A stretch of DNA of 64,000 bases, from positions 3,693,703 through 3,757,702 of the forward strand of contig NZ_CM011002.1 in NCBI RefSeq assembly GCF_000158095.2. Direction: 5' to 3'. Positions 36,231 to 59,581 of this stretch are shown here, in pieces. Below the pieces are notes generated by a model that worked only from the letters and a program-made list of their open reading frames with translations, was not told the DNA's origin and searched no databases. Made by a program: the position numbers and the translations under genes. The first letter of the stretch is position 1; every line of letters begins with the position of its first letter. The stretch is from Roseibium alexandrii DFL-11. GTDB taxonomy: Bacteria > Pseudomonadota > Alphaproteobacteria > Rhizobiales > Stappiaceae.

Positions 36231-36300
36231 TTAAAAACGATCAGCTTTTGGCCGTTCTCCCTAGTCCGGTTGAACGCCCGCTGATCCGGAGGAAAAATTC

Positions 36301-37212: not shown

Positions 37213-38627
37213 AGGCGGCAATCATTGGCGGCGGCGTCATCGGCGGCGGTTGGGCCGCGAGATTTCTCCTGAACGGCTGGGATGTTGCCGTTTTTGATCC
37301 AGACCCGGAAGCGGAACGCAAGATCGGCGAAGTGATCGCCAATGCGCGCCGCAGCCTGCCCGCGCTTTATGATACGGCGCTGCCCGCCGAAGGGAACTTG
37401 AGCTTCCACTCAGAGATGGCTGATGCTGTTCAGAACGCAAACTGGATACAGGAAAGCATTCCAGAGCGGCTGGACCTGAAACACAGGATCCTCGGAGACC
37501 TGAGTGAACTGGCGCCGGAGACCGCGGTCATTGGCTCGTCAACTTCGGGGTTCAAGCCATCGGAGCTGAACGAGAAAGGCGCGCGCGCTATCGTCGCACA
37601 CCCTTTCAACCCAGTTTACCTCCTGCCGCTCATTGAGCTGGTTGGAGATGCCGGGGCTTGCGAGAACGCAGCGCCCGTTCTCCGCTCAATCGGCATGTTC
37701 CCCCTGATGGTCCGCAAGGAAATCGACGCCCACATTGCGGACCGGTTTCTGGAAGCGGTCTGGCGCGAAGCCCTATGGCTGGTCAAGGACGGTATTGCCA
37801 CAACAGAAGAAATCGATGAAGCCATCCGGATGGGTTTTGGCATCCGATGGGCGCAGATGGGCCTTTTCGAGACCTACCGGATTGCCGGCGGTGAAGCCGG
37901 TATGAAGCATTTCATGGCGCAGTTCGGTCCGGCCTTGAAGTGGCCCTGGACAAAACTGATGGACGTCCCGGAGTTTACCGATGAGCTGGTTGACCTGATA
38001 GCGGGGCAATCTGATGCGCAATCCGGCCATATGTCGATCCGCGAGCTGGAGCGTCTGCGGGACGACAATCTCGTTGGCATGATGCGGGCGCTTAAAAAAA
38101 CCGGCAGTGGCGCCGGCGGCGTCATCCAGCGCCATGAGGCAGACTTGCCGAAACCTGAAGCGCCGGATTTGCCAATTACGGGCGACCGGAAAATCCCTGT
38201 CAGCTGGACCGACTACAACGGCCATATGAACGAGACCCACTATCTCGAGGCCGGGTCACTCGCAACGGACCGGTTCATGGAGCTGATCGGCGCAGATGCG
38301 AATTATATCGCGTCAGGCAAAAGCTATTTTACCATCGAAACCCATGTCCGTTATCTCAGCGAATTACACGCCGGTAACCGGCTGACCATCCGCACCCAGG
38401 TGCTTAAAGGTGAAGGCAAGAAGCTGCACCTCTTCCACTTCCTTTACGGACCCGACGACACACTCGCAGCAACTGTTGAAACACTGCTGTTGCACGTGGA
38501 CCTAACGACCCGGGCAAGTTCTCTGCCGGATCAAGCGGTTGCAGAGAAGTTGGGGGCCTATCATCAGGCCCATGCGGCTCTCGAACAGCCTGAGGGAGCG
38601 GGACGATCCGTCGGCCAAAAGGCCTGA
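37209..38627 (+). CDS. Bifunctional carnitine 3-dehydrogenase/betainyl-CoA thioesterase
   Basis: A 472-residue fusion. Residues 1-310 are a 3-hydroxyacyl-CoA-dehydrogenase-type NAD enzyme (IIGGGVIGGGWAARF at 5-19, SSTSGFKPSEL, AHPFNPVYLLPLIELV). From about 325 a hot-dog thioesterase follows, with SWTDYNGHMNETHYLEAG as the 4HBT active-site segment. The same fusion is known in carnitine-degrading rhizobia: it oxidises L-carnitine to 3-dehydrocarnitine and hydrolyses betainyl-CoA to glycine betaine. It ends the operon before a strong terminator. Confidence 0.9.
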   Translation: MKAAIIGGGVIGGGWAARFLLNGWDVAVFDPDPEAERKIGEVIANARRSLPALYDTALPAEGNLSFHSEMADAVQNANWIQESIPERLDLKHRILGDLSELAPETAVIGSSTSGFKPSELNEKGARAIVAHPFNPVYLLPLIELVGDAGACENAAPVLRSIGMFPLMVRKEIDAHIADRFLEAVWREALWLVKDGIATTEEIDEAIRMGFGIRWAQMGLFETYRIAGGEAGMKHFMAQFGPALKWPWTKLMDVPEFTDELVDLIAGQSDAQSGHMSIRELERLRDDNLVGMMRALKKTGSGAGGVIQRHEADLPKPEAPDLPITGDRKIPVSWTDYNGHMNETHYLEAGSLATDRFMELIGADANYIASGKSYFTIETHVRYLSELHAGNRLTIRTQVLKGEGKKLHLFHFLYGPDDTLAATVETLLLHVDLTTRASSLPDQAVAEKLGAYHQAHAALEQPEGAGRSVGQKA

Positions 38628-38650: not shown

Positions 38651-38690
38651 GATAAAAAATAAACCCGCCTATTTGGGCGGGTTTATTTGT
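38651..38690. terminator. Bidirectional rho-independent terminator
   Basis: AAATAAACCCGCC (38657-38669) pairs perfectly with GGCGGGTTTATTT (38676-38688) around a six-base loop, with T-rich or A-rich sequence on both sides. It lies between the convergent carnitine operon and TRAP transporter operon and can stop transcription from either side. Confidence 0.92.
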
Positions 38691-38745: not shown

Positions 38746-40053
38746 CTACAAACCTGGCAGCCACAGGGCCAAGCCCGGAAACAAGACCAACAAGGCGACG
38801 ACCAGCAGCGAGCAGCCGATAAACGGGAAAGCCGAGGTATAGATGTCTCGCATGGTGGTGCCGGGGGGCGCGACCCCCTTCATTACGAACAACAACAGCC
38901 CAAAGGGCGGTGTTGTGAAGCTGATTTCCAGCGACAAGAGCATGATCAGGCCAAACCAGATCGGATCGAAGCCCAGCGTCAATGCGAGTGGGAAGAAAAT
39001 CGGAACGGTCAACAGCATGATCGAAATCTGCTCCATGAACATGCCAAGGATCAAAAGAACTGCAAACATCACGAGCAGCATCGCGATCGGTGCCAGTTCA
39101 AACGATGTTGCCCAGTTGACCAGACCGCGGGAAGCTCCGGAAAAAGCGAGCAACTGACTGAAGGTGGCCGACCCGAACACGATCAGATAGGCCATCAGGG
39201 TGACCCGAAGCGCACCGGTAATCGATTTGCGCATGGCCTCCCATGTGAGGCAGCGGAAGACGGCGGCAAGGATGAGCACGCCCAGCGCGCCGAAGGCGGC
39301 TGCTTCTGATGGCGTAATGAAACCATTGATCATCAGTGTAATGATAATGACCATCACGCCCACCATCGGAACCACCTCCCGCACCAAGAGCGAGAGTTTG
39401 GCACCGAGGGACATCGGCTCAACGTCATAGGCCGGCGCAGCGGATGGATCGATTTTCGTCTGAAGCCAGATGGTGGCGATGTAAAACCCAGCCAGGATGA
39501 GCCCCGGAATGACCCCTGCAATCAGCAAGGCACCAACATCGATCTGCGCAAGCGTTGCTAGAAGAACGGCAAGAGCAGACGGCGGGATGATAATGGCCAG
39601 ACCGCCCGTCCCAAGGATCGGGCCGATGCTCATGTGGGTCTTATAGCCGCGCCGGTTCATCTCAGGGACCATGAGCGAGCCGAGAAGCGCGGTCGACCCC
39701 ATGGACGAGCCGGAGAGGGTTGAGAACGCTGTCCCCCCCATTACGGTGACATAGCTGAGGCGCCCGGGAAGCCGGCCAAGCAGCTTGTCGATGGCCGTGA
39801 ACATGCGGTTGCCGAGTCCCGTGTGAAAGAAGATTTCCCCCATCAACAAGAACAGTGGAATGGGGACCAGGGCGAACTTGGTCATGGACCCAAGGCCATT
39901 GTTGAGCAACTGGCCAATGCCGCGCTCCCCGCCCATGAAAATCCAGGCTCCCACGATGTTCGCCGCAAGAAACGCCAAGGCGACCGGCATCCCGATTGCC
40001 ATGAGGGCCACGATTACACCCAGCAAAAGGGCAAGCGCCTCATACCATTCCAT
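38746..40053 (-). CDS. dctM: TRAP transporter large permease, DctM-like
   Basis: A 435-residue inner-membrane protein of the normal DctM length with about 12 hydrophobic segments. Family segments include GMPVALAFLAANIVGAW, FLLMGEIFFHTGLGNRMF and IIIPPSALAVLLATLAQIDVGALL. It is the ion-coupled transport subunit of a tripartite ATP-independent transporter. Its start overlaps the dctQ stop by one base. It is the last gene of the leftward GntR operon; the substrate is probably an organic anion handled by the same regulon. Confidence 0.92.
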   Translation of the reverse strand: MEWYEALALLLGVIVALMAIGMPVALAFLAANIVGAWIFMGGERGIGQLLNNGLGSMTKFALVPIPLFLLMGEIFFHTGLGNRMFTAIDKLLGRLPGRLSYVTVMGGTAFSTLSGSSMGSTALLGSLMVPEMNRRGYKTHMSIGPILGTGGLAIIIPPSALAVLLATLAQIDVGALLIAGVIPGLILAGFYIATIWLQTKIDPSAAPAYDVEPMSLGAKLSLLVREVVPMVGVMVIIITLMINGFITPSEAAAFGALGVLILAAVFRCLTWEAMRKSITGALRVTLMAYLIVFGSATFSQLLAFSGASRGLVNWATSFELAPIAMLLVMFAVLLILGMFMEQISIMLLTVPIFFPLALTLGFDPIWFGLIMLLSLEISFTTPPFGLLLFVMKGVAPPGTTMRDIYTSAFPFIGCSLLVVALLVLFPGLALWLPGL

Positions 40054-40559
40054 TATTCGTGTATCCCTGCTTCGCCGGTATGGAGCGTGTCCGGCCCGGC
40101 GACAAAACGCGAAAACTCGATTGCCATCAGCCCGAAGCTGACGGGAAAGGAAATCGTGAGAAGCCAGCGCGGGTAATAATAGGCGCGCGTGTCATAATCA
40201 CCGCGCTCAATGTTTTTCAAAAGCAATTCAACGCCTTGCCAGGCCAGAATGAGGCAGACAAGGACACAGGCAAGCGCCACGCTCCGGCTTACAACGTTCC
40301 GGACGGCAGGAGGCAAGATCGACGTAATGAGCTCGATATGCACATGCCCTTTCTCGCGCACCAGCCACGGCGCGCCCAGCATGGTCATGTAGAGAAGTCC
40401 GTATTCGGCCGACGTAAACAGCCAGGCAAACGGCTGCATACCCATATTTCGCATGAGCACAGAGCCGACCACCGATACCATAAGCCACACAAGCGTTGCC
40501 CCGGCTGCAATCGCCATTGTATCGATCAAGGCGTTATATGCTTTCTTGAGTGCTGTCAT
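40053..40559 (-). CDS. dctQ: TRAP transporter small permease, DctQ-like
   Basis: A 168-residue protein with four hydrophobic segments, starting at the ATG of MTALKKAYNALID. A TTG seven codons upstream is also in frame but lacks a ribosome site and lies next to a terminator stem. The family segment GAPWLVREKGHVHIEL is present. It bridges the periplasmic binding protein and the large permease. Confidence 0.88.
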   Translation of the reverse strand: MTALKKAYNALIDTMAIAAGATLVWLMVSVVGSVLMRNMGMQPFAWLFTSAEYGLLYMTMLGAPWLVREKGHVHIELITSILPPAVRNVVSRSVALACVLVCLILAWQGVELLLKNIERGDYDTRAYYYPRWLLTISFPVSFGLMAIEFSRFVAGPDTLHTGEAGIHE

Positions 40560-40578
40560 GAAGACCGCCTGCTCCAGC

Positions 40579-40609
40579 AAAAAAGAGGGCCCGCGATCCC
40601 CGCGAGCCC
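40579..40609 (-). terminator. Terminator-like attenuator between dctP and dctQ
   Basis: On the minus strand a nine-base GC-rich stem (40587-40595 with 40601-40609, one G-U pair, five-base loop) is followed by TCTTTTTTG. It begins 14 bases after the dctP stop. A leaky terminator here would make far more binding protein than permease, as expected for a periplasmic component. Confidence 0.8.
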
Positions 40610-40622
40610 GTGTTTCAAGTGC

Positions 40623-41636
40623 TTATTTTGCAGCGTCGAAATCGTAGAACAATTCGATCAAGCGATCGTAATTGTCGGTGCCGCCCGGCTGTTCTGCCAT
40701 CAGGCCCTTCATCCGCTCCCACGTCTTTTCGCGTGCTGCTGCGAGGTAATTGGCTTTGGCTTCACCTTCCAATGAGACAGAGATCATGCCTGCAGCATCA
40801 AGCGCGGCGAAATCCTCATCCCGCTTCTTGCGCAGAGCCTCGACACTGTCCTTCTCATGCTGAATGGCGACATCTTGCAGGATTTTCTTGGATTCATCAG
40901 ACAGGGAATCCCACTTCTCCAGATTCACGATCACACCAAGGTCGGTGGAGAAGAAGCAGGGCTCGATCCGGTAGTTCAGGAACTCGTTCCATTTCAGATC
41001 GATCAAACCGATTTGGGTCCAGCCGGTTGCATCGACAACGCCGCGCTGCAGAGCGGCATAGACTTCACCGGTCGGCAAATCGATGACCTGCGCGCCGAGA
41101 TAGTTGGAGAAAAACGCGTTGTAGACGTTGTTGCCGCGCAGTTTCAGGCCTTCCACTTCCAGATTGCCATCGGCATCGAAGGTCGGCTCGTCGCGGGTCC
41201 AAAGATTGTAGCAGACACCACTGTCAAACCAGCCGAGATATTTCAGACCCATTTTTTCCTGATGGATCTGATCAATCAGTTCCGTACCACCGTTCTGGCG
41301 TGTTTCAACAGCGGTCAGGTTCGAGCCGACCATCGCGTCTTTTTCCGGCAGGGCGCCACCATAGAAGGAGCCCGGTGTGTAAACCATGTCAACGATGCCA
41401 TCCCGCACGGCATCCGGCTGCTGGAACATGCCAATGGCTTCCGGGCCACCGCGCACATCAATCTGGACCACGCCCTTGCCAGCTTCGTTGACCTTGTCGA
41501 CGAAGGACAGGAAGCTTTTTGTGTAGATCAGCGTTTCCGGGAATGCATGAACCGCGGAAATCCTGTCTTCCGCATGCGCGGTCGCTGTGAACAGTGATGC
41601 ACTGGCAACCAAGCCAGCTACGAGGATGTTTTTCAT
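40623..41636 (-). CDS. dctP: TRAP transporter substrate-binding protein, DctP-like
   Basis: A 337-residue periplasmic protein with signal peptide MKNILVAGLVASASLFTATA and cleavage after AHA near residue 22. It has GGPEAIGMFQQPDAVRDGIVDM and the DctP signature region EVYAALQRGVVDATGWTQIG near residues 196-215. A GGAG ribosome site lies at a proper distance. It delivers the substrate to DctQM. Position in the leuCD/GntR operon suggests a carboxylic acid or imide-related ligand; the ligand cannot be read from sequence. Confidence 0.92.
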   Translation of the reverse strand: MKNILVAGLVASASLFTATAHAEDRISAVHAFPETLIYTKSFLSFVDKVNEAGKGVVQIDVRGGPEAIGMFQQPDAVRDGIVDMVYTPGSFYGGALPEKDAMVGSNLTAVETRQNGGTELIDQIHQEKMGLKYLGWFDSGVCYNLWTRDEPTFDADGNLEVEGLKLRGNNVYNAFFSNYLGAQVIDLPTGEVYAALQRGVVDATGWTQIGLIDLKWNEFLNYRIEPCFFSTDLGVIVNLEKWDSLSDESKKILQDVAIQHEKDSVEALRKKRDEDFAALDAAGMISVSLEGEAKANYLAAAREKTWERMKGLMAEQPGGTDNYDRLIELFYDFDAAK

Positions 41637-41701
41637 AGTCTCACTCCACTTTGCGGGACGTCCCTCAGTTGGTCCCTATGTTTTCAAGGCTGGCCCCTCA
41701 G

Positions 41702-42340
41702 CTATTGGCTCCCATTCATTTGAGAGTTCTGGTCTTCCGCGTTGGGCCAAACCCAGGAAGAAGTTGTTCTGCGATCTTGCTTGTGTTTCTCGATCGCACG
41801 TTCGTGTTGCAGTGTCAGGTCGATGTCGTCCCACCCGTTGATCAGCTTTGTTCGCCAGCTGTTGTCGAGTGAGAATGGGACTTCGGATCCACCGACGATG
41901 ATGTGTCCGTGCTCCAGATGAATGTGTGCCGGACCGCAGCCTTCGTTGAGCTCGCCCGTCAGGCGCTCAAGATCGGCCTCCGAGATAAGTGCTGGCAACA
42001 GACCGTTATTGACCGCATTGCTCGCAAAGATGTCGCCGAAGCTCGGTGCCACCACGGCCCTAAAACCTGCATCCACCAACGCGTAGACCGCTGCTTCACG
42101 CGAAGAACCGCTGCCGAAATTCCGGCCTGCGATCAAGATGCTGGCCTGCGGAAACTGATTAAGCGGGAAGTCCGGACACTCCAATCCGTCGTCCAGACGC
42201 CTCAGATCATGAAGGAGGAACTGTCCATAACCCTCTGACCTTGGCGTCGACATGAACCGGGCCGGAATCAACTGATCCGTATCGATATTGTGAACCGGCA
42301 AAGCGACTGCTTGCCCCTGATGTTCAGTCCAACCAGCCAT
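41702..42340 (-). CDS. LeuD-like small subunit of an aconitase-family hydro-lyase
   Basis: A 212-residue swivel-domain subunit starting MAGWTEHQGQAVALP. It has NIDTDQLIPARFM (34-46), ILIAGRNFGSGSSREAAVYAL and the C-terminal WDDIDLTLQHERAIEKHK. With the LeuC-like subunit it forms an enzyme that adds or removes water on a branched dicarboxylic acid. The location in a GntR-controlled catabolic operon with a TRAP transporter speaks against a leucine-synthesis role, so no leuD symbol is given. The start shares one base with the leuC-like stop. Confidence 0.85.
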   Translation of the reverse strand: MAGWTEHQGQAVALPVHNIDTDQLIPARFMSTPRSEGYGQFLLHDLRRLDDGLECPDFPLNQFPQASILIAGRNFGSGSSREAAVYALVDAGFRAVVAPSFGDIFASNAVNNGLLPALISEADLERLTGELNEGCGPAHIHLEHGHIIVGGSEVPFSLDNSWRTKLINGWDDIDLTLQHERAIEKHKQDRRTTSSWVWPNAEDQNSQMNGSQ

Positions 42341-43746
42341 CAGAGTTCCCTCCCTTTCAAGAGAGGGCGTACATCGGTGATGGTGCCGGTCACAGCGGCA
42401 GCTGCGACCATCGCCGGTGACATGAGGTGCGTGCGAGCACCCGGACCCTGGCGCCCGCGAAAGTTCCGGTTGGTCGAAGACGCGCAACGCTTGCCCGGCG
42501 CAACGATGTCGCCGTTCATGCCAACACACATCGAACAGCCGGACGCAGACCACTCCAAACCGGCTTTCCGGAAAATCTGGTCCAGACCTTCTTGTTCTGC
42601 CTGGTGGCGGACAAGTGCTGACCCGGGAGAGACCAGTCCCGGTACCTTCACCGCCCGGCCTGCAAGCACGGCGGCAGCGGCCCGAAGGTCTTCGATCCGC
42701 CCGTTGGTACATGAACCGAGAAACACCTGATCGACCGGCGTGCCTTCGATCGGGCACCCGGCAGCCAGCCCCATATAGTCCAGCGCGTCGCGCGCAGCCT
42801 TTTGCTTTTCCTCTGACAGCCTGGACGGATCAGGAAGCGTTGCGCTGACCGGCAATGCTTGCTCAGGGCTCGTGCCCCAAGTGACGGTCGGTGCGATCTC
42901 TTCTGCCGCCAGACTTACATCTTTGGCAAAGACGGCATCTTCGTTAGAGCGCAGTTTCTGCCACTTTTCCTGAGCTTTCTCAAAAGCTGCGCCGTTTGGC
43001 GCGAAGGGCCGCCCTTTGATATAAGCAAAGGTGGTGTCATCGGGCGCGACCATGCCAAAGCGGCCACCGCCTTCGATCGAAAGGTTGCAGAGCGTCATCC
43101 GCCCTTCCATCGACAGGTCCCGGATGGCGCTTCCGGCATATTCGATCGCGTGTCCCCGGGCGCCGTCGGACCCAAGTTTTGCAATCCAGTTAAGCGCGAT
43201 ATCCTTGGCGCTGATGCCCTCGGCCAGCTTCCCGTCAACGACGATACGCATGGCCGCCGGTTTTTTCTGCCATACGGTTTGTGTCGCAAGAACATGAGCG
43301 ACTTCCGTCGCACCGATGCCAAAAGCGAGCGCACCAAACGCACCGTGGGTCGATGTGTGGCTGTCGCCACAATTGACCAGCAGACCCGGCAAGGTCAGCC
43401 CCTGCTCCGGGCCCACGACATGCACGATGCCCTGCGCCGGATCCATCAGATCGAACAGGCGCAAACTGTGCTGCGTTGCATTCGAGCGCAGCGTTTCGAT
43501 CATGCGGCGGATTTTAGGATCTGCGATATGTTCTCGGTGGCGCGTCGGCGCATAGTGGTCAACAACGGCAAAGGTCAATTCGGGTTCAGCGACGGCCGCA
43601 CCACGTTCGGCCAGTTTGGCGAACGCATGATGGGACCCTTCATGCACAAGGTGCCGGTCCACCCACAAAAGCGATGTCCCGTCTTCACGGGTCAGCACTT
43701 CGTGCGACGACCAAAGCTTGTCGAGAAGGGTCGTGGCCGCTGTCAT
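42340..43746 (-). CDS. LeuC-like large subunit of an aconitase-family hydro-lyase
   Basis: A 468-residue subunit of LeuC length, starting MTAATTLLDKLW. The [4Fe-4S] ligands are C346 (GSCTNGR), C404 and C407 (SGCSMC). NCGDSHTSTHGAFGAL and the substrate loop MEGRMTLCNLSIEGGGRFG are present. Compared with typical LeuC, substrate-region motifs are altered (HEGSHHAF, VDHYAPT). Related two-subunit enzymes include maleate hydratase and 2,3-dimethylmalate dehydratase, which are plausible alternatives. It overlaps the gntR stop by four bases. Confidence 0.85.
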   Translation of the reverse strand: MTAATTLLDKLWSSHEVLTREDGTSLLWVDRHLVHEGSHHAFAKLAERGAAVAEPELTFAVVDHYAPTRHREHIADPKIRRMIETLRSNATQHSLRLFDLMDPAQGIVHVVGPEQGLTLPGLLVNCGDSHTSTHGAFGALAFGIGATEVAHVLATQTVWQKKPAAMRIVVDGKLAEGISAKDIALNWIAKLGSDGARGHAIEYAGSAIRDLSMEGRMTLCNLSIEGGGRFGMVAPDDTTFAYIKGRPFAPNGAAFEKAQEKWQKLRSNEDAVFAKDVSLAAEEIAPTVTWGTSPEQALPVSATLPDPSRLSEEKQKAARDALDYMGLAAGCPIEGTPVDQVFLGSCTNGRIEDLRAAAAVLAGRAVKVPGLVSPGSALVRHQAEQEGLDQIFRKAGLEWSASGCSMCVGMNGDIVAPGKRCASSTNRNFRGRQGPGARTHLMSPAMVAAAAVTGTITDVRPLLKGREL

Positions 43747-44546
43747 GCGCCCTCCTCGTGCGTCTTTCCAATCGCTGGCTCCCAATGGCGGGCGTTCCCG
43801 TCCCCGACCCGGGTTAGCGGCATCTCAAGGCGGAACATGTCCGGGCGGTAGAGGCCCGCCAGATACTCAACCCCATTGCCATCAACGTCCTTGACCACGC
43901 GGCGCAAGGACAACAGCGCAGAGCCGACCGCGACATCAAGAGCGTCGGCAACTTCCGGCCCGGCAAGGGTTGCGGAAACCGACTGATGAGCATCCTTGAT
44001 CTGGACACCGCCACGTTCCAGCAATTTGAAGAGCGGGGTCGTTGCCAGGTCATTTTCTGAATAGTTGCGAGCGATTTCAGCCGGGACATAGGTTGTCAGG
44101 TGTGAAAACGGTGTTTGGTTCGTGCTCCGGACACGGGTTGCGATCTGAACTTGTTCATCGCTCGGCAGCCCGAGAGCGGATGCCACGAAATCCGGCGCAG
44201 CATCGTATGAAAAGGATAGAAGGCGCGCCGTGGTGCTTTGACCCATTTCAACAAGTTGCGGCATCAGGGTCGCAAGGTTCATAGCAACCGGTTTGTCCAG
44301 CTGACCCGCTGTCGAGACCGTTGTCCCGCTTCCTGCACGCCGGATGATGAGGCCCGAGGCGGCCAAAGCATCAAGCGCCCGGCGTACTGTCACACGCGAG
44401 ACACCAAAGACCTCAGAGAGTTTCTGTTCGCCCGGGAGGGTTTGCCCGTCCTGAAACCTGCCATCGGAAATCTGATCACGGAGAGACAGGTAGACCTGCC
44501 GCGCCTTGGCGCCTTCCGGCAACACCGATTTTGCATGCTTGTTCAT
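43743..44546 (-). CDS. GntR-family regulator of the HutC/UTRA type
   Basis: A 267-residue regulator. Residues 15-85 form the GntR winged helix (LPGEQKLSEVFGVSRVTVRRALDALAASGLI). A UTRA ligand domain covers about 100-245 (VQIATRVRSTNQTPFSHLTTYVP). It is the first gene of the leftward operon and divergent from the tautomerase-hydantoinase operon. The perfect palindrome at 44654-44671 is a likely binding site, so it probably represses both arms until a pathway intermediate binds. Confidence 0.9.
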   Translation of the reverse strand: MNKHAKSVLPEGAKARQVYLSLRDQISDGRFQDGQTLPGEQKLSEVFGVSRVTVRRALDALAASGLIIRRAGSGTTVSTAGQLDKPVAMNLATLMPQLVEMGQSTTARLLSFSYDAAPDFVASALGLPSDEQVQIATRVRSTNQTPFSHLTTYVPAEIARNYSENDLATTPLFKLLERGGVQIKDAHQSVSATLAGPEVADALDVAVGSALLSLRRVVKDVDGNGVEYLAGLYRPDMFRLEMPLTRVGDGNARHWEPAIGKTHEEGA

Positions 44547-44624
44547 GTGTGCAAGCCTCCGTGGGTAAGGCTCAATGGTATCGCTGGATACTCAAATATC
44601 AAGTTGCCGGTCCGATATTTTTTT

Positions 44625-44690
44625 CATTTTTTGTATTAGATATTTTTTCAAGCTGTATTATGTGTAATACAAATTGCTGTAGGGAGGCAG
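44625..44690 (+). promoter_or_regulatory. Operator and promoter of the tautomerase-hydantoinase operon
   Basis: TGTATTA and TAATACA form perfect seven-base arms around a TGTG centre (44654-44671). A further GTATTA half-site occurs at 44633-44638 in a very AT-rich stretch. TATTAT inside the palindrome could serve as a -10 box with TTGTAT at 44631 as -35. A strong AGGGAGG ribosome site precedes the first gene. The GTA-TAC symmetry is in the style of GntR/HutC operators; assignment to the neighbouring regulator is inference. Confidence 0.65.
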
Positions 44691-44691
44691 T

Positions 44692-45258
44692 ATGCCGATT
44701 GTCGAATTGCACGTATTGCAAGGCTACGAGTCGCAAGAAAAGCTGCGGCTTCATGAAGCTCTGACCGATGCGGTGCGCCTCGTCGTACCGGCTCCACCCG
44801 AAGCAATTACCGTCCTGATCCATGAATTAAAGGGCGAGGACTATTCCCGCGGAGGCATTCACCGGCAGGGCGCTTCAGCATTGCCGGATGCCGGCGACCT
44901 TGTTCGGACCTATCTGAGCGCCATGGAGGCAAGGGACCTGGAGCGCGCGCAATCGATGCTCAGCGCAGACTTCGTCATGGAGTTCCCGGGCACCGGTCCT
45001 CTCCGGACGCTTGACGAGCTGATCGCTTGGGCAAAACCACGCTACCGTTTCGTGAAAAAAACCTATGACGGCTTCGATGTCATGCAAAGCCGCAAAGCAG
45101 CGACAGTTGTTTATTGCCGCGGCAACCTCTCCGGCGAATGGCCGGATGGAGACAGCTTCGAAGGCATTCGTTTCATCGATCGGTTCGAAGTCGTCGCGGG
45201 CAAAATCACCCGCCAGGACGTTTGGAACGACATTGCAGAAGTAAAGGCCAACGCATGA
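44692..45258 (+). CDS. Tautomerase-like/SnoaL-like fusion protein
   Basis: A 188-residue protein. The N-terminus MPIVELHVLQGY matches 4-oxalocrotonate tautomerase-type proteins, with the conserved proline just after the initiator methionine as catalytic base; this part covers about 1-62. Residues 65-188 form a SnoaL/NTF2-like domain (LVRTYLSAMEARDLERAQSMLSADFVMEFPG and GIRFIDRFEVVAGKITRQDVW). It may isomerise a double bond of the imported substrate. It leads the rightward operon and overlaps hydantoinase B by four bases. Activity is unknown. Confidence 0.8.
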   Translation: MPIVELHVLQGYESQEKLRLHEALTDAVRLVVPAPPEAITVLIHELKGEDYSRGGIHRQGASALPDAGDLVRTYLSAMEARDLERAQSMLSADFVMEFPGTGPLRTLDELIAWAKPRYRFVKKTYDGFDVMQSRKAATVVYCRGNLSGEWPDGDSFEGIRFIDRFEVVAGKITRQDVWNDIAEVKANA

Positions 45259-46946
45259 GCGATATCGATCCGATAACACTGTCGGTTCTAGCCGGCCGCA
45301 TGGAACAGATTGCGGACGAAATGGACGCAACGCTCTTCCGCGCAGCGTTCAATCCCATCATTGCTGAAGCGCATGATGCCAGCCACGGCCTTTATCACGC
45401 CGGGACCGGCGACACGCTGGTCCAGGGAAAATCCGGTCTTCCGATTTTTGTCGGTGTGATGTCCTTTGCGGTCAAGGCGGTGATTGAAAAAGCCGCTGCC
45501 GATGGCGATTTGAACGACGGCGACATCTTCATCTTCAATGATGCGCATATCGGCGGCACCCACCTGTCGGACATGCGGCTGGTCCGTCCCTATTTCCGCG
45601 ATGGGAGACTGTTCTGTTACCTCGCCTCTGTCGGCCACTGGCACGATGTTGGCGGGGCCGTTCCAGGCAACTACAATCCTGCAGCAACGGAAGTTTTCCA
45701 GGAAGCGTTTGTCCTCCCCCCGGTCCGTTTGGCTCGTGCCGGTGTGGTCAATCAGGACATCATCGACATTCTCCTGCGCAATACCCGCCTGCCGCAATCC
45801 GCCATGGGCGATCTCAATGGCCAGCTGGGCGCGCTCGATCTTGGCATCAAACGCATGGACGAATTGCTCGACGAATACGGCGCCGCGACCGTGAGCGGCG
45901 CTCTTGACGCTCTTGGTCACCGCGCAGAAGCGCTGATGCGCTCTGAATTGACTGATCTGCCGGATGGGCGCTGGGAAGCGGAAGACTTTCTCGACAATGA
46001 CGGCATCACCGATGAGCCGCTGGCAATCCGCGTCGCGCTGGAAATCAAGGGCGATGAACTGACCCTGGATTTCGCCGGTTCCTCGCCGCAATGCGACGGC
46101 CCGGTCAACATCGCGCTGCCGACCACCGTCGCCACTGCCTATGTTGCGATCAAACACATCTTCCCGGCCTTGCCCGCAAACGCCGGCGTGATGCGCCCAA
46201 TCACGGTCAATGTGCCGGAGGGGTCGTTGTTGTCGGCTGAATTTCCGGCCCCAACCGGTGGCTATACCGAGACAATTCTGCGGATGATCGATGTGATCTT
46301 TTCCGCCTTTGCGAAGGCCGCACCGGATAGGGTCGTTGCGAACGCCTACGGCACGATCAACGCCCTGTCGATTGCAGGTAAGAAAAGCGACGGTAAGCCC
46401 TGGGTCATGTTCAGCTTTTATGGCGGCGGCCATGGCGGTTCATTGGAAAGCGACGGCCTGAACCACGGCAACGCTCCGATTTCAACGGCGACCATTCCGC
46501 CAATGGAAATTCTGGAAGCTGCCTATCCGGTCATGTTCCGCCAATGGGCGCTGCGGCCAGACAGCGCCGGTGCCGGTGCTCATCGAGGCGGTATGGGGGC
46601 CATCTACGAGATCGAAGTCCTTGAAGAGAATGGCGCCGAGGCCTTCCTCTTCGGAGAACGCGGCCGGTTTGCGCCAAAAGGCATTGCGGACGGACACGAC
46701 GGAGAACTCAATCAATTTACCTATGAACAGGATGATGGTTGGAAGACACCACCGCTCGCCTCGAAAATGCGCGGCATCAAGTTGCGCCAGGGCCAGGCTG
46801 TCCGCCTGGAAACACCGGGCGGCGGCGGATACGGCAAGGCGGAAAATCGTGAGGCGGGCGACATCGCCCGTGACGTGGCACGCGGTCTCGTCAGCTCAGA
46901 TGCGGCCGACAAGAATTACGGTACGGCTTGGCGGGAGGTGTCCTAA
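45255..46946 (+). CDS. hyuB: Hydantoinase B/oxoprolinase-type subunit
   Basis: A 563-residue protein of normal HyuB length starting MSDIDPITLSVLAGRMEQIA. It has NDAHIGGTHLSDMRLVRPYF, GHWHDVGG, APTGGYTETILR and the C-terminal RLETPGGGGYG, all typical of the family. With HyuA it forms an ATP-dependent amidohydrolase opening cyclic amides or imides such as N-methylhydantoin or 5-oxoproline; some relatives carboxylate ketones. Its stop overlaps the hyuA start. The actual ring substrate is unknown. Confidence 0.88.
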   Translation: MSDIDPITLSVLAGRMEQIADEMDATLFRAAFNPIIAEAHDASHGLYHAGTGDTLVQGKSGLPIFVGVMSFAVKAVIEKAAADGDLNDGDIFIFNDAHIGGTHLSDMRLVRPYFRDGRLFCYLASVGHWHDVGGAVPGNYNPAATEVFQEAFVLPPVRLARAGVVNQDIIDILLRNTRLPQSAMGDLNGQLGALDLGIKRMDELLDEYGAATVSGALDALGHRAEALMRSELTDLPDGRWEAEDFLDNDGITDEPLAIRVALEIKGDELTLDFAGSSPQCDGPVNIALPTTVATAYVAIKHIFPALPANAGVMRPITVNVPEGSLLSAEFPAPTGGYTETILRMIDVIFSAFAKAAPDRVVANAYGTINALSIAGKKSDGKPWVMFSFYGGGHGGSLESDGLNHGNAPISTATIPPMEILEAAYPVMFRQWALRPDSAGAGAHRGGMGAIYEIEVLEENGAEAFLFGERGRFAPKGIADGHDGELNQFTYEQDDGWKTPPLASKMRGIKLRQGQAVRLETPGGGGYGKAENREAGDIARDVARGLVSSDAADKNYGTAWREVS

Positions 46947-49009
46947 TGAGCGGACAGATGATTGGCGTTGATGTCGGCGGAACGTTCACGGACGTCTTTG
47001 TTCTCAATGAAGCCGATGGAACGGCCGCCGTTGCGAAGGTCCCAACGACCCGTCCGGATCAATCCGGTGGTTTCCTTGATGGCATCAGCAAGCAGGTCGA
47101 TGACCTGTCAACGATTTCTGTGGTTGTTCATGGCACCACGGCCGGGACCAATGCGCTTCTTGAACGCAAAGGCGCACCGACCGGAGTGATCTGCACGGAA
47201 GGTCTGAGAGACGTTCTGGAGATGCGCCGCCGGGACCGGCCACGCACCTGGGGGCTGCGGGGAGACTTTGAACCTGTTGTCGACCGGCGCAATCGTCTTG
47301 AAGTGCCCGAGCGAACCCTGGCAGATGGAACCATTCGTACCCCAGTAGATCTTGATGCGGTCCGCGCTGCCGCACAGCAGCTCCAGACGCAAGGTTGCGA
47401 GGCCGTCGCGATCCTGTTCGCTAACTCCTATGCAAACCCGGACAATGAAAAGGCGGCTGTTGCTGCTGTCAGGGAGATCTGGCCGAATGCCCATGTGTCC
47501 GCGTCCTCGGAAATCCTCCCTGAAATCCGCGAATTTGAGAGGTTCTCGACAACGGCGCTGAACGCTTACCTTCAGCCGGAAGTGTCCGGATATCTTGGCC
47601 GCCTGGAACAAGCGCTCAAGACCGGCGGGTTCGACGGCGAGTTCATGATCGTCCAGTCAAACGGCGGGGTTATGGCGGTCGATACGGCCTGCAGACTGCC
47701 GGTACGAACAGCGCTCTCAGGTCCTGCGGCCGGCGTGATTGCTGCGGGCTATATCGCCTCGTCTGCTGGTTTCAACAATGTCATCACCGGGGACATGGGC
47801 GGCACCAGTTTTGATGTGTCCCTGATTTCGGACGGTCAATCGATGCTGTCTCCGCAGACATCAATCGACTTCGGGATGGTTGTGCGCACGCCGATGATCG
47901 AGATCACCACGATCGGCGCGGGCGGCGGATCCATTGCCTGGGTCGATAAGGGCGGTCTTTTGAACATCGGCCCGGAAAGCGCCGGCTCCAATCCCGGCCC
48001 CGTTGCCTATGGTCTTGGAAATGACCGACCGACCGTCACGGATGCAAACGTTGTTCTTGGCCGCATTGATCCGGAGAGCCCCATCGGAGGAAAGCTGGAC
48101 CGGCTGGACGTCGAAGCGGCCGCCAATGCGATCGATATTCATGTCGGAAAGCCGCTTGGCCTCGACACGTTACAGGCGGCAGAGGCCATCATGCGGGTTG
48201 CCAATTCCCGTATGGCTGGGGCCATCCGGCTTGTCAGCATCGAGCGCGGCTTTGACCCGAAGAACTTTGCCTTCATGCCTTTTGGCGGTGGCGGCGCGCT
48301 GCATACCGGAGCGATGCTTGCTGAAGTCGGAATCGCCAAGGCCATCGTGCCTCGCTACCCCGGCGTCACCTCGGCCATGGGTTGCGTGATCGCGGACATG
48401 CGCCAGGATTTCGTTCAGACCATCAATTCACTGGTTGATGCCCTCGACGAAAATGCGCTGGCGGACCACATGCAAACCCATGTCGACAGCGGTATGGCTC
48501 TTCTGGATGCTGCACGCACGACGTTCGAAGCCCGGGACATCAGTTTTGAGCTGGACATGGCTTATATCGGTCAGACGCACACGGTCTCCGTACCGATTGC
48601 AGTGACCGTGCGTGACGGCCAGGTAACAGCTTCGAGCAAGGCAGATATCGAAGCCGCCTTTGATGCAGCTTACAAATCCGCCTTTGGCCGGCTCCTGAAC
48701 AACGGTGTCCGGCGGATCTTGAACTTGCGCACCGCCGTCACCGGGAAACGTCCGAAATTCGATCTTAAAACACTTGCCCCTTCAGCTGGTGGAACTGCGG
48801 AACCAAAATCGAGCCGCAAGGTGCATTTCGGGGATTCCTGGTACGAGACTGCAGTATACGACCGCCTTTCCCTGCTCGCAGGTACGGTGATCAATGGGCC
48901 GGCGATCCTGGTCCAGCCGGATACAACCGTTTTGGTTGAGCCCAATCTGCAGGCGCGTGTGGACGCTTTTGGCAACACTATTCTTGAACCTCTGGAGAGC
49001 ACGTCATGA
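46946..49009 (+). CDS. hyuA: Hydantoinase A/oxoprolinase-type subunit
   Basis: A 687-residue ASKHA-fold ATPase subunit starting MSGQMIGVDVGGTFTDVFVL. ATP-binding motifs are VDVGGTFTD (8-16), HGTTAGTNALLERKG and GDMGGTSFDVSL. The C-terminal domain includes FGGGGALHTGAMLAE and GPAILVQPDTTVLVEP. ATP is used to phosphorylate the cyclic substrate so that HyuB-HyuA can hydrolyse it. The start shares one base with the hyuB stop. The pair is clearly catabolic in this setting. Confidence 0.9.
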   Translation: MSGQMIGVDVGGTFTDVFVLNEADGTAAVAKVPTTRPDQSGGFLDGISKQVDDLSTISVVVHGTTAGTNALLERKGAPTGVICTEGLRDVLEMRRRDRPRTWGLRGDFEPVVDRRNRLEVPERTLADGTIRTPVDLDAVRAAAQQLQTQGCEAVAILFANSYANPDNEKAAVAAVREIWPNAHVSASSEILPEIREFERFSTTALNAYLQPEVSGYLGRLEQALKTGGFDGEFMIVQSNGGVMAVDTACRLPVRTALSGPAAGVIAAGYIASSAGFNNVITGDMGGTSFDVSLISDGQSMLSPQTSIDFGMVVRTPMIEITTIGAGGGSIAWVDKGGLLNIGPESAGSNPGPVAYGLGNDRPTVTDANVVLGRIDPESPIGGKLDRLDVEAAANAIDIHVGKPLGLDTLQAAEAIMRVANSRMAGAIRLVSIERGFDPKNFAFMPFGGGGALHTGAMLAEVGIAKAIVPRYPGVTSAMGCVIADMRQDFVQTINSLVDALDENALADHMQTHVDSGMALLDAARTTFEARDISFELDMAYIGQTHTVSVPIAVTVRDGQVTASSKADIEAAFDAAYKSAFGRLLNNGVRRILNLRTAVTGKRPKFDLKTLAPSAGGTAEPKSSRKVHFGDSWYETAVYDRLSLLAGTVINGPAILVQPDTTVLVEPNLQARVDAFGNTILEPLESTS

Positions 49010-49641
49010 TCGATCTGAAAACGTGGGATCCAAAGCGTACGGCGATCCTGACCATTGATCTGCAGAACGACTTTCTGCACCAAGAGGGTGCGTATGGCCG
49101 CGCCGGACAATCGGCTGACAGCATCGCGGCGTTGCCACAACGCATTGCGCCCTTGGTGAAGGCCTTGCGGGCACGCGGAGGCCACTACATTTCGGCGCAG
49201 TTCACACTTGTCCCGAATGCGTCGGGCGAACCCTTGATTTCCCCGCACCTGCAAGTGCTACGACCCTTCCTCGGCAAAGGTGATTTTGCACCGGGCTGCT
49301 TCGGCCATACGTTGGTCGATGAGCTCTTTCCAGCTGATTTCGTCATTGAAAAAGTGGCCTATTCCGCCTTTTACCAGACACGACTGGAATACATCATGCG
49401 CGCCGTTGGCATCGACAAGCTGATCGTTGGCGGAATCGTCACCAACGGCGGTGTCGCATCCACACTGCGGGACGCTCATCTTCGCGATATCGAGACCGTG
49501 CTTTTGACGGACGGGTCTGCCGCCTTCAAGAACAACGTGCACGAGGCAACCTTGCTGTCTCTGGCGACCGTCACCCATCAGATGGCGTGTGCCGACCTGT
49601 TGGACACCATCACAACAGATTGGCCGGAGGTGACGGCATGA
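49006..49641 (+). CDS. Isochorismatase-fold protein lacking the catalytic cysteine
   Basis: A 211-residue protein with the isochorismatase/cysteine hydrolase fold. D18 (TIDLQNDF) and K116 (FVIEKVAYSAFYQT) of the triad are present. The segment normally reading TNVCVEST is TNGGVAST, so glycine 149 stands where amidases have cysteine. Carbamoylsarcosine or maleamate amidases need that cysteine, whereas true isochorismatases lack it. The reaction may therefore be a different hydrolysis or isomerisation. It overlaps both neighbours by four bases. Confidence 0.85.
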   Translation: MIDLKTWDPKRTAILTIDLQNDFLHQEGAYGRAGQSADSIAALPQRIAPLVKALRARGGHYISAQFTLVPNASGEPLISPHLQVLRPFLGKGDFAPGCFGHTLVDELFPADFVIEKVAYSAFYQTRLEYIMRAVGIDKLIVGGIVTNGGVASTLRDAHLRDIETVLLTDGSAAFKNNVHEATLLSLATVTHQMACADLLDTITTDWPEVTA

Positions 49642-50504
49642 GCCTCAAGAAACGCCTGCAGCAGAACGAGATTGTCATCGCCCCCGGTGTTTATGACGGC
49701 CTCACGGCTTCGCTTGCCGAAGCCGCCGGGTTTGAAGCCCTTTATTTGAGCGGTGCCGCGGTCGCCTACACCCGTTTGGGCCGCCCGGACATCGGCCTCT
49801 CGTCCTTCACCGAGATGGCCGACACGATGGCACTGATTGCCGACCGGACTGATCTGCCGGTTATTATCGATGCAGACACCGGGTTTGGAAACGCGCTCAA
49901 TGGCCAAAGAACCATGCGCCTTTATGAGCGCGCCGGGGCAACAGCGCTCCAGGTCGAAGACCAGACCTATCCAAAGCGCTGCGGACATCTTGCCGACAAA
50001 TCCCTGATACCGGCCGCAGAGATGGCCGGAAAGGTTCGGGCCATGGCGGACGCACGTGCATCAGAGGAAACCCTGATCATTGCCCGAACGGACGCCATTG
50101 CGGTGGAAGGATTTCAAGCTGCCATCGACCGGGCCGGGGCCTATCTGGAGGCCGGCGCAGACATTCTCTTCATCGAAGCGCCCCAATCACGTGAGCAATT
50201 GACTGAAGTCGCAACCCAATTCGCAGGCCGGGTGCCACTTCTGGCAAACATGGTGGAGGGCGGCGCAACGCCCATTTCCGGCGCCTCTGATCTGGAAGCC
50301 CAGGGCTATTCCATCGTGATTTTCCCAGGCGGCATCGTCCGCGCCTTGGCCAAGACCGCACAAGAGTATTACGCCAGCTTACATGCCAATGGCAGCAACC
50401 GGCCCTTCAAAGACCGGATGTTCGACTTCGACGGTCTGAATGGCGTTATCGGAACCGCGGATATGCTGGCAAAGGGTTCAAGCTATGACCCAAGTGACCG
50501 TTGA
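49638..50504 (+). CDS. Isocitrate lyase/PEP mutase-family C-C lyase
   Basis: A 288-residue TIM-barrel enzyme starting MSLKKRLQQNEIVIAPGVYDG. Metal-binding acidic residues sit in IIDADTGFG (77-85) and QVEDQ. The loop KRCGH (113-117) with its cysteine is the mark of the lyase branch, as in methylisocitrate and 2,3-dimethylmalate lyases. It would split a 2-hydroxy or alkylmalate-type acid into pyruvate or glyoxylate plus a second acid. With the leuCD-like hydro-lyase it forms a hydratase/lyase pair. The substrate is inferred. Confidence 0.85.
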   Translation: MSLKKRLQQNEIVIAPGVYDGLTASLAEAAGFEALYLSGAAVAYTRLGRPDIGLSSFTEMADTMALIADRTDLPVIIDADTGFGNALNGQRTMRLYERAGATALQVEDQTYPKRCGHLADKSLIPAAEMAGKVRAMADARASEETLIIARTDAIAVEGFQAAIDRAGAYLEAGADILFIEAPQSREQLTEVATQFAGRVPLLANMVEGGATPISGASDLEAQGYSIVIFPGGIVRALAKTAQEYYASLHANGSNRPFKDRMFDFDGLNGVIGTADMLAKGSSYDPSDR

Positions 50505-51864
50505 GGTTTCATCGGCGCCAGCCGAGTTTGATCTGGACTGTGAAACCATGATCATTGGAGCCGGAGCAGCCGGTCTCGTTGCAGCACTTTCCGCTCAAGA
50601 AGACGGCCAATCGGTGCTCGTGATCGAGGCGGATCCAATCCCGCGCGGCTCCACGGCGCTCTCCGCAGGTCTCATACCGGCAGCTGGAACCAACATTCAA
50701 AAGGCAGCGGGTGTTGAGGACAGCGCAGACCTCTTTGCCCAGGACATTCAATCCAAGGCAAAGCAGGAAAATGATCCGGCGCTGGTAGATCTCCTGACCC
50801 AACAGTCTGGCCCGGCCATAGACTGGCTGAGTGAAACTCACGGCCTGCCGTTTTCGGTCATAACCAACTTCGATTACCCCGGTCATTCCAGGCACAGAAT
50901 GCATGGCCTCCCCACCCGGTCCGGCATTGAACTCATCGACAGCCTGCGCTCAACCTGCGAGACCCGAGGCATCGACATCATCTGTGAACGGCGCGCAGTG
51001 CAGCTTCATACGGATCAAGGTCGGATTTCCGGTGTGACCGTTCAGCGCCCCGATGGCGGACTGGAGACCATCGGATGTGAAAAGTTGATCCTGGCCTGCA
51101 ACGGTTTCGGCGGAAACCGCGATCTTGTCAGCCAGTTCATGCCGGACATAGCCGACGGCCTTTGGTTTGGTCACGACGGCAATCGCGGGGAAGCCATCGT
51201 CTGGGGAAAAGACATCGGCGCGGATATGGCGCATCTTGGCGCCTACCAGGGCCACGGCAACGTTGCGCATCCGCACGGGATCCTGATCACATGGGCGGTG
51301 ATCACAAGCGGCGGCGTCCAGGTGAACCGAGAAGCAGAGCGCTTTTGGAATGAATCTCAAGGTTACTCGGAAGCCGCCCGTGCGGTGCTCGCCCAACCAG
51401 GCGGCGAAGCCTATACAATCTTTGACGGCCAGATTGCGGAGATCGCCCGCCAGTTTGAGGACTTCAAAAACGCTGAAGCCGTGAGCGCGATCAAGGTCAG
51501 TGAGACGCTTGAAGGCCTTGCAGACCAGCTCGGCCTAGCAGCGGAAAACCTGACCGCCACAATCTCAAGCCTGCCATTGAATGAAACAGACGGATTTGGC
51601 CGGAGGTTTGGCGACACACAGCTAGCCCCGCCCTATTTCGGTGTCCGGGTAACGGGCGCCCTGTTTCACACACAGGGCGGGTTGCGGACCGACGAACACG
51701 CGCGTGTTCTGAAGACAGACGGAGCACCTATACTCAACCTCCATGCATGCGGCGGCGCAGCGTGCGGCGTTTCAGGCCGCGGTGACAGTGGTTATCTGTC
51801 CGGCAACGGTCTCTTGAGTGCCGTTGTCCTCGGCCGGATCGCAGGTCAGGCCCCGTCGGCTTAA
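50485..51864 (+). CDS. FAD-dependent oxidoreductase, fumarate reductase/KSTD-like
   Basis: A 459-residue flavoprotein. FAD binding is by MIIGAGAAGLVAALSAQ (22-38), with RGSTALSAGLIPAAG after it, and a C-terminal CGVSGRGDSGYLSGNGLLSAV. The fold is the fumarate reductase flavoprotein family, which includes tricarballylate dehydrogenase and ketosteroid dehydrogenases, enzymes that make or reduce C=C bonds beside carbonyl or carboxyl groups. It overlaps the lyase gene by 20 bases and ends the operon. Without a signal peptide it should be cytoplasmic. Confidence 0.82.
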   Translation: MTQVTVEVSSAPAEFDLDCETMIIGAGAAGLVAALSAQEDGQSVLVIEADPIPRGSTALSAGLIPAAGTNIQKAAGVEDSADLFAQDIQSKAKQENDPALVDLLTQQSGPAIDWLSETHGLPFSVITNFDYPGHSRHRMHGLPTRSGIELIDSLRSTCETRGIDIICERRAVQLHTDQGRISGVTVQRPDGGLETIGCEKLILACNGFGGNRDLVSQFMPDIADGLWFGHDGNRGEAIVWGKDIGADMAHLGAYQGHGNVAHPHGILITWAVITSGGVQVNREAERFWNESQGYSEAARAVLAQPGGEAYTIFDGQIAEIARQFEDFKNAEAVSAIKVSETLEGLADQLGLAAENLTATISSLPLNETDGFGRRFGDTQLAPPYFGVRVTGALFHTQGGLRTDEHARVLKTDGAPILNLHACGGAACGVSGRGDSGYLSGNGLLSAVVLGRIAGQAPSA

Positions 51865-59564: not shown

Positions 59565-59581
59565 GATCGGAGCGGAAACTG

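Follow-up and report, generated by a model that had tools for sequence, protein, structure and literature searches.

Background

Nicotinate fermentation in Eubacterium barkeri ends with the actions of 2,3-dimethylmaleate hydratase (DmdAB) and 2,3-dimethylmalate lyase. The two protein families involved, a LeuCD-like hydro-lyase and a lyase of the PEPM family, also form an adjoining pair within a twelve-gene cluster of Roseibium alexandrii DFL-11, the subject of this report, which lies in a 64,000-nucleotide stretch of contig NZ_CM011002.1 (here the window; all coordinates are positions in it). The two systems occur in different organisms, and where the E. barkeri route has a B12 mutase branch, the Roseibium-type cluster has the cyclic amidase HyuAB, an isochorismatase-fold protein (ISO) without its catalytic cysteine, a tautomerase fusion and glutarate-type genes. 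Some loci of the cluster furthermore substitute a hacA/IPMI_arch pair with a small subunit of the LeuD/DmdB type.

The caprolactamase CapAB and the hydantoinase HyuAB are the described counterparts of the ring-opening enzyme. According to excerpts of PMC8453981, HyuAB relatives open hydantoins and oxoproline, and one has been proposed to act on 2-oxoindole acetate.

The cluster is a single gene set, co-inherited and widely kept, whose arrangement is shared by many bacteria from the sea and from soil, and its LeuCD is a dedicated paralog rather than the leucine enzyme. A cyclic imide or lactam probably feeds the LeuCD-PEPM pair, and this class of chemistry is fairly well supported. In the annotated records viewed the cluster is not named as a pathway, and the open-licence literature yielded no prior description of it or of genes for maleimide degradation, which is weak evidence of novelty.

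Gene organisation

The cluster occupies 38746-51864 and comprises twelve genes, all with intact frames. From the centre outwards, the minus strand carries the GntR/UTRA regulator, LeuC, LeuD, DctP, DctQ and DctM; the plus strand carries, in order, the tautomerase-SnoaL fusion, HyuB, HyuA, ISO, the PEPM-family lyase and the FAD oxidoreductase:

38746..40053, minus strand: DctM, TRAP large permease (Pfam PF06808, 8.9e-77)
40053..40559, minus strand: DctQ, TRAP small permease (ATG start; an alternative TTG at 40580 is possible)
40623..41636, minus strand: DctP, TRAP solute-binding protein (Pfam PF03480, 1.4e-23)
41702..42340, minus strand: LeuD-like hydro-lyase small subunit (PRK01641, 206.8 bits; TIGR00171, 153.8 bits)
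42340..43746, minus strand: LeuC-like large subunit of a 4Fe-4S hydro-lyase (best family PRK12466, 721 bits)
43743..44546, minus strand: GntR/HutC-type regulator with UTRA domain (PF00392 and PF07702)
44654..44671, no strand: putative operator TGTATTA-N4-TAATACA, a palindrome 20 bases ahead of the start of the tautomerase fusion
44692..45258, plus strand: 4-oxalocrotonate-type tautomerase fused to a SnoaL-like domain (PF01361 and PF12680)
45255..46946, plus strand: HyuB, hydantoinase B or lactamase subunit (PF02538, 4.7e-170)
46946..49009, plus strand: HyuA, hydantoinase A or ATP-binding subunit (PF01968, PF05378, PF19278)
49006..49641, plus strand: ISO, isochorismatase-fold protein without catalytic cysteine (PF00857)
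49638..50504, plus strand: PEPM/isocitrate-lyase-family C-C lyase (PF13714; motifs KRCGHL and ANMVEGGxTP)
50485..51864, plus strand: FAD-dependent oxidoreductase of the flavocytochrome c/TcuA group (PF00890, 7.1e-57)

An earlier, sequence-only reading of this stretch had described two divergent operons around one regulator and one palindrome, with overlaps of 1-20 bases inside the enzyme blocks. That layout holds and every gene it listed is present, with measured overlaps of 1, 4, 4, 1, 4, 4 and 20 bases and with gaps, not overlaps, at DctQ-DctP and DctP-LeuD; the tautomerase-SnoaL fusion, the twelfth gene, was absent from its list. DctQ is named from its place between DctM and DctP and from its Sulfitobacter counterparts, which are annotated as TRAP small permeases. 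The solved chain nearest to DctP is 4mnc/4mni (1.1e-46), which we take to be a binder of ring-keto-acids.

Conservation and co-inheritance

Conservation was followed in the best 80 of at least 580 confirmed loci, anchored on the PEPM lyase, with one genome per species and a leaning towards close relatives. When the window proteins were mapped onto these 80 loci, 54 had both flanks and 26 were shorter than 20 kb. Near PEPM, ISO is present in 76, HyuA in 75, HyuB in 73, the FAD oxidoreductase in 73, LeuC in 70, GntR in 69, LeuD in 68, the tautomerase fusion in 56 and DctP in 41. The 54 loci with full flanks all have LeuC and LeuD, 53 have HyuA, HyuB and ISO, and 52 have the FAD oxidoreductase and GntR; 51 of their LeuC are at least 59% identical to that of the window and three about 36%. 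The co-occurrence search that the sequence-only reading had proposed has thus been run, and it returns one conserved gene set.

Gene set and order are identical in Roseibium, on Sulfitobacter plasmids and in other Rhodobacterales. Azospirillum, rhizobia and Roseomonas have the enzyme core with other importers, TRAP being replaced by an ABC importer of the branched-chain type; the core is also found in Paraburkholderia (L160), where neither the flavoprotein nor the tautomerase fusion occurs within the 14.8 kb inspected.

Of 289 evenly drawn genomes of Alphaproteobacteria, the window genome included, 18 have ISO (E ≤1e-60) and 37 have PEPM (E ≤1e-100). All 18 genomes with ISO also have PEPM, against 2.3 expected, a co-occurrence with P of about 1e-18 if genomes are treated as independent, with kinship uncorrected. 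The two genes lie at most 7 kb apart on one contig in 14 of the 18, and on different contigs in the other four, three of which belong to one genus. The association extends to plasmids: among 30 listed ISO records above 50% identity, 27 also appear among the 30 PEPM records listed, with the two genes at most 5 kb apart, the exceptions being two Paraburkholderia records that fall outside the PEPM records listed and Tistrella pTM2, which has none at that place. A set of 26 relatives contains 12 cluster-type LeuC, of which 11 have a tautomerase fusion at a distance of about 1 kb.

Reduced sets also occur. Skermanella combines LeuC and LeuD with a tricarboxylate-type importer and a PEPM of another subfamily (41% identical), and Aliihoeflea has an importer, LeuCD, GntR and a PEPM of 69% identity; from these, LeuCD and the lyase can be recognised as a stand-alone carboxylate module, to which HyuAB with ISO would form a front end.

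The hydro-lyase and the lyase

The housekeeping LeuC (800.9 bits) and LeuD (252.1 bits) of the genome are encoded elsewhere. In a LeuC tree of 59 rows, 26 housekeeping LeuC fall on one side of a branch with a support of 100 and a length of 1.31; the tree was built by a quick method with SH-aLRT support only, from 30 of the 75 cluster rows, leaving out L156 and with L106 on a long branch. The window LeuC groups with cluster LeuC from other genera, and the genome's own housekeeping LeuC (L137) is on the opposite side. Three rows entered as genome LeuC fall among the cluster LeuC, being themselves cluster copies beside a tautomerase fusion. The sequence-only reading had named grouping with the leucine-synthesis LeuCD as one outcome that would overturn it; the tree separates the two, and assignment to the leucine pathway was rejected. 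The window LeuC passes the cut-off of TIGR00170 (623.3 vs 560.25 bits). The cysteines of a 4Fe-4S hydro-lyase (Cys346, Cys404 and Cys407) are kept in 74 of 75 aligned sequences, the remaining row being gapped, and LeuD is adjacent; here and below, alignments hold sequences of at least 70% length (above 300 residues for the flavoprotein), with shorter ones left out.

Five loci have a LeuC of just 35-37% identity: L112 and L119 of Stappia, L122 of Pelagibius, L160 of Paraburkholderia, and L103. Of these, L112 and L160 have a large subunit of the hacA/IPMI_arch group, and L122 and L160 a small subunit of the LeuD/DmdB group. In the three named genera a hacA/IPMI_arch-type pair has taken over from the usual hydro-lyase while PEPM, HyuAB and ISO were retained, and since a different hydro-lyase adjoins the same PEPM and HyuAB, hydration appears to be a needed step.

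PEPM has the superfamily's catalytic residues Lys113, Cys115, Gly116 and His117, together with Asp78 and Asp80, in 89 of 89 sequences. The K(K/R)CGH loop and the metal-site aspartates are common to the carnation petal death protein, which cleaves alkylmalates, and to PrpB. At the variable points, the petal death protein (1zlp) has CGHM and ANMIEGGKTP, to which the CGHL and ANMVEGGxTP of the window PEPM are close, whereas PrpB, with CGHR and ANITEFGATP, differs at both; CGHL and NMVEGG are kept in 88-89 of the 89. PEPM also scores below the PrpB cut-off (TIGR02317, 292.1 vs 354.4 bits), and on this score and the PrpB motifs a methylcitrate cycle was rejected. Phe178, present in 89/89, occupies the position of a PrpB phenylalanine that presumably makes room for the 2-methyl group, so that the product would be pyruvate.

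Two further loci (L161, 6983-10122; L162, 6986-10158) hold LeuC-LeuD-LeuB trios near ABC or tricarboxylate-type binding proteins, and may be modules of a maleate or citraconate type, not genes for leucine.

Ring opening, nitrogen removal and the flavoprotein

HyuAB retains the elements of an ATP-dependent cyclic amidase. In HyuA, the ASKHA ATP motifs are represented by Asp9, Gly11, Gly12, Thr13 and Asp16 (78/79, one row gapped) and by Asp283, Gly285, Gly286 and Thr287 (79/79). The HyuB metal tetrad of Asp41, His103, Asp106 and His128 is present in 78 of 78 sequences, and matches the metal site of the caprolactamase CapB (Asp41/His99/Asp102/His124) given in excerpts of PMC8453981; from the same excerpts, the ATP motifs and the Asp-His-Asp-His site are shared with both CapAB and hydantoinase HyuAB. 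The nearest models are those of caprolactamase, at 318.8 and 515.2 of 1000, far below the CapA/CapB equivalog cut-offs, and the surrounding gene set is different. With these motifs intact, HyuAB would be an ATP-dependent opener of a cyclic amide, as the sequence-only reading had supposed.

That reading had also assigned loss of the amide nitrogen to the isochorismatase-fold protein in the usual way, which the active site does not support. At the position of the catalytic cysteine of RutB, ISO has Gly149 (TNGGV vs TNVCV), and the Asp-Lys-Cys triad of cysteine amidohydrolases is reduced to Asp18 and Lys116. Both of these residues are kept in 82 of 82 orthologs, of which 81 have glycine and one (L039) alanine at the third position; the copies in Paraburkholderia (L160) and Tistrella pTM2 (L163) likewise have glycine. 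Automatic annotation as, for instance, cysteine hydrolase is accordingly misleading, and creatinine/N-methylhydantoin and pyrimidine pathways, whose amidases need this cysteine, were rejected. Isochorismatases of the EntB/PhzD type are likewise not known to have it. RutB and triuret hydrolase are among the nearest to ISO by sequence; with a predicted structure (pLDDT 80.9), the fold search placed urea-type hydrolases, namely biuret and triuret hydrolases, first and PhzD and NicF lower, at TM-scores similar among the 50 matches listed, so that function is not decided by fold. RutB, biuret and triuret hydrolases and NicF share the fold, Asp18 and Lys116 with ISO, which differs in having glycine for cysteine. 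Loss of the cysteine would be explained if the substrate assisted in catalysis, the cis-carboxylate of a maleamate attacking the amide of the same molecule.

In the flavoprotein, two tyrosines, Tyr294 (76/77) and Tyr437 (75/77), occupy the positions of the catalytic and substrate-binding arginines of fumarate reductase. The fold family and both substrate-site histidines (His257 in 76/77, His395 in 75/77) are shared with flavocytochrome c fumarate reductase, urocanate reductase and TcuA, which differ from it at both arginine positions. The fumarate-reductase-like action on a dicarboxylate suggested from sequence is accordingly not supported, and the enzyme may act on a ring or ketone-like C=C bond instead. 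Tricarballylate oxidation was rejected, as the arginines are missing and the TcuA score is 181.6 of 369. The tautomerase fusion has the catalytic proline of 4-oxalocrotonate tautomerase after methionine in 56 of 58 sequences.

A variant locus on a plasmid of Variovorax sp. RA8 (L039, 10414-20388) contains LeuCD, PEPM, a SfnG/RutA-like flavin monooxygenase, an SDR protein, a flavin reductase and RibBA; its isochorismatase is the alanine form noted above, likewise cysteine-free. The monooxygenase set is perhaps an oxygen-dependent counterpart of HyuAB.

Glutarate-type genes in the operons of relatives

In nine loci a glutaryl-CoA-dehydrogenase-like gene lies within the operon, with a glutarate-type CoA-transferase alongside in seven. 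The dehydrogenase gene is 3' of the flavoprotein gene in seven of the 80 best loci (L050, L062, L071, L097, L100, L101, L102) and in L169 (G081), and overlaps it by 8 or 14 bases in the four where starts were read (L062, L071, L100, L169). The ninth, Tistrella pTM2 (L163), has the order GntR, HyuB, HyuA, ISO, acyl-CoA dehydrogenase, CaiB/BaiF CoA-transferase, LeuC, LeuD, its HyuA being absent from the gene table and recovered by tblastn in two pieces. The operon dehydrogenases that follow the flavoprotein are 67-71% identical to the Tistrella pTM2 one. Of the two loci without the CoA-transferase, L050 ends soon after the dehydrogenase and L169 has none. From names and identity, without a tree, the nine loci represent about six lineages, L097, L100, L101 and L102 looking close.

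Six of six dehydrogenase sequences carry GYRSxxSVQSSL and YEGTHDIHALILGRA, with Ile or Val after YEGTHD, and in longer form GYRSxxSVQSSLVMYPI and YEGTHD(I/V)HALILGRA; we take both motifs to be marks of glutaryl-CoA dehydrogenase. One of 60 plasmid relatives listed (Rhizobium etli, 66.8% identical) is annotated gcdH, most of the others being annotated acyl-CoA dehydrogenase or nothing. For the CoA-transferase (two tested), the best model of all is the succinate-glutarate CoA-transferase NF052585, at 533 bits. Such a dehydrogenase occurs elsewhere in 89 of 101 genomes searched, so that its presence in a genome proves nothing and its position in the operon is the clue.

Neighbour mining otherwise returned mostly transporter parts. 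Two neighbour families with no Pfam match run opposite to the genes for the dehydrogenase and the CoA-transferase and are probably spurious. In Neorhizobium and Tistrella, old-yellow-enzyme genes close to the cluster fit reduction of maleimide-type rings, though the family is broad.

Other gene groups were seen around these loci. Tistrella pTM1 (L041, 3917-17605) has PEPM, two MmgE/PrpD proteins, two genes annotated as aspartate/glutamate racemase family, a stand-alone tautomerase, an FAD enzyme and an old-yellow enzyme annotated as tRNA-dihydrouridine synthase. In L037 (6053-7024), an annotated nitronate monooxygenase is an NamA-like Oxidored_FMN protein with weak similarity to bilirubin reductase. 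In Roseovarius (L067, 12449-19775) the cluster is followed directly by a second set, made up of an ABC importer, MmgE/PrpD and two genes related to those of the Asp/Glu racemase family.

Proposed pathway and its alternatives

The TRAP importer would take up an organic acid bearing a small cyclic amide. The tautomerase fusion and the flavoprotein would adjust C=C bonds of the ring, which HyuAB, given its intact motifs, would open with ATP. Nitrogen would then be lost, aided by the cysteine-free ISO, leaving a substituted maleate. From its family and the gene pairing, LeuCD is expected to hydrate this to a substituted malate, and the PEPM lyase to cleave the malate to a 2-oxo acid and a shorter acid of the form R-CH2-COOH. 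The latter is probably glutarate, because a glutaryl-CoA-dehydrogenase-like gene lies in the operon in nine loci, with the CoA-transferase in seven. We put the probability of the ring adjustment and opening, hydration and cleavage, with glutarate as a product, at about 0.5.

If the products are glutarate and pyruvate, the malate would be 2-methyl-3-(2-carboxyethyl)malate, formed by hydration of the corresponding maleate, and the original imide would be hematinic acid, 3-(2-carboxyethyl)-4-methylmaleimide. The carbon balance fits, a C8 triacid giving pyruvate (C3) and glutarate (C5), and hematinic acid is a good guess as the simplest substrate that would yield these two products. That the natural substrate is hematinic acid or a close relative is put forward tentatively. 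To our knowledge, no genes for degrading hematinic acid or alkylmaleimides have been described. Excerpts of PMC7318184 and PMC12860425 describe hematinic acid as a product of chlorophyll and bilirubin oxidation, and report it, with alkylmaleimides, from senescent leaves and sediments; in the leaves of PMC7318184 itself the excerpts give hematinic acid and no maleimides. PMC7318184 also puts the yearly synthesis and degradation of chlorophyll on the order of 10^12 kg. A fuller claim, which we consider somewhat unlikely, is that the cluster would be the first genetic pathway mineralising monopyrrole imides of chlorophyll, heme and bilins, proceeding from hematinic acid import through HyuAB and LeuCD to pyruvate and glutarate, with ISO using the cis-carboxylate of the substrate as nucleophile and Asp18 as proton donor. 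If true, marine Roseobacters, Roseibium, Azospirillum and rhizobia would carry a genetic marker for recycling the carbon and nitrogen of tetrapyrrole fragments, and a role would be found for a cysteine-free isochorismatase-fold branch now often auto-annotated as cysteine hydrolase. The route from tetrapyrroles through alkylmaleimides, favoured in the sequence-only reading, stands in its hydratase-PEPM-lyase core and gains the hint of a carboxyethyl-maleimide, and is not supported in its isochorismatase amidase and its fumarate-reductase-like flavoprotein.

Several observations weigh against the glutarate-forming pathway. The dehydrogenase scores 207.8-216.9 of the 470 bits required by the glutaryl-CoA dehydrogenase model NF045552, its best NCBIfam models are of the FadE type (248.7-250.1 of 600 bits), its predicted structure is poor (pLDDT 40.6), and its name draws on the two motifs and the one annotation among the 60 listed. 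The CoA-transferase is likewise below the NF052585 cut-off of 750 bits. Operons containing the dehydrogenase are the exception (7 of the 80 PEPM loci, with L163 and L169 in addition), and the window genome has its own relative (80%) elsewhere, outside the cluster. With no nucleophile in ISO, nitrogen removal is left without an explanation. Parts of the enzyme set are missing from L040, L066, L068 and L106, including the FAD gene in L066 and HyuAB, ISO and FAD beside the PEPM of L040 and L106; the twelfth cluster-type LeuC among the 26 relatives (G064) is without a tautomerase fusion; and on Tistrella pTM2 the genes for HyuAB, ISO, the dehydrogenase and LeuCD have no PEPM gene next to them, a PEPM being on another plasmid. 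PEPM itself resembles the petal death protein, which we believe to prefer alkylmalates without a third carboxylate. The substrate and every enzyme activity are, moreover, predictions from the genes.

This last resemblance is the starting point for an alkylmaleimide pathway without a third carboxylate, in which methylethyl- or dimethylmaleimide would be converted via a 2,3-dialkylmalate to pyruvate and butyrate or propionate, the glutarate-type genes being a lineage-specific add-on. The LeuCD-PEPM pairing, which we take to mirror dimethylmaleate hydratase and dimethylmalate lyase, and the hacA/IPMI_arch-type substitutes of some loci are consistent with it. We nevertheless regard it as unlikely, as it leaves the dehydrogenase-like gene of nine operons without a role, and as DctP proteins mostly bind carboxylates, of which these imides have none. 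The glutarate evidence would also be accommodated by a homoaconitate-type pathway without the methyl group, where the triacid is cis-homoaconitate and the lyase yields glyoxylate and glutarate, and hacA is itself a homoaconitase family. Phe178, invariant and presumed to make room for a methyl group, argues against such a triacid, and we know of no abundant natural carboxyethyl-maleimide without the methyl; this pathway is accordingly judged very unlikely.

Two further alternatives turn on HyuAB. It could open a hydantoin, 2-piperidone or a similar compound, with LeuCD and PEPM acting on an unrelated, co-imported carboxylate. Caprolactamase models are the nearest to HyuAB, though below cut-off, and 2-piperidone would itself yield glutarate; LeuCD and PEPM are, however, retained as tightly as HyuAB, ISO is without the cysteine that an N-carbamoyl hydrolase would need, and, as a partial test, neither a transaminase nor an aldehyde dehydrogenase is seen in the eight families annotated out of the 21 that recur as neighbours. 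Such a split function seems quite unlikely. HyuAB could also be an ATP-dependent carboxylase like acetophenone carboxylase, which excerpts of PMC8453981 place in the same superfamily. Of such subunits, the annotated loci viewed contain just HyuB and HyuA, and their scores are higher on caprolactamase than on acetophenone carboxylase models, which makes carboxylation highly improbable. An isonicotinate/citrazinate route was rejected, there being neither gene evidence nor a relevant paper among those listed.

Regulation

The regulator has both the GntR helix-turn-helix and the UTRA domain of the GntR/HutC group. The palindrome TGTATTA-TGTG-TAATACA at 44654-44671 is the sole exact match in the genome; allowing up to two mismatches gives four genomic sites, not above a reversed control. 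A looser form, GTATT-(2-8 bases)-AATAC, occurs in 24 of 51 divergent GntR intergenic regions shorter than 600 bases, from the window and its relatives, where 200 shuffled sets give 0.045 on average and 1 at most, the pattern having been picked after the data were seen. It is suggested that both arms answer to one inducer, and the cluster would be best explained as an inducible catabolic regulon. As RNA, the regulator gap does not fold unusually well (z -1.64; equalled by 12 of 200 shuffles), and no RNA switch is therefore claimed.

Neighbouring genes

Terminator-like sites are near chance (17 found vs 14.3 expected) and promoter-like sites at chance (4 vs 4.2). A hairpin at 38657-38688 divides the cluster from carnitine-type genes upstream, the total of hairpins not being above chance. 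The block that it sets apart (35360-38627) contains a frame that is enoyl-CoA-hydratase-like by sequence, BKACE, and a fusion of 3HCDH with a 4HBT thioesterase, a layout known from carnitine degradation. On the other side of the cluster, a subtilase (52203-53513) lies ahead of a block at 53755-60457 made up of a transglutaminase-DUF2126 protein, a circularly permuted ATP-grasp with Alpha-E, and a second transglutaminase.

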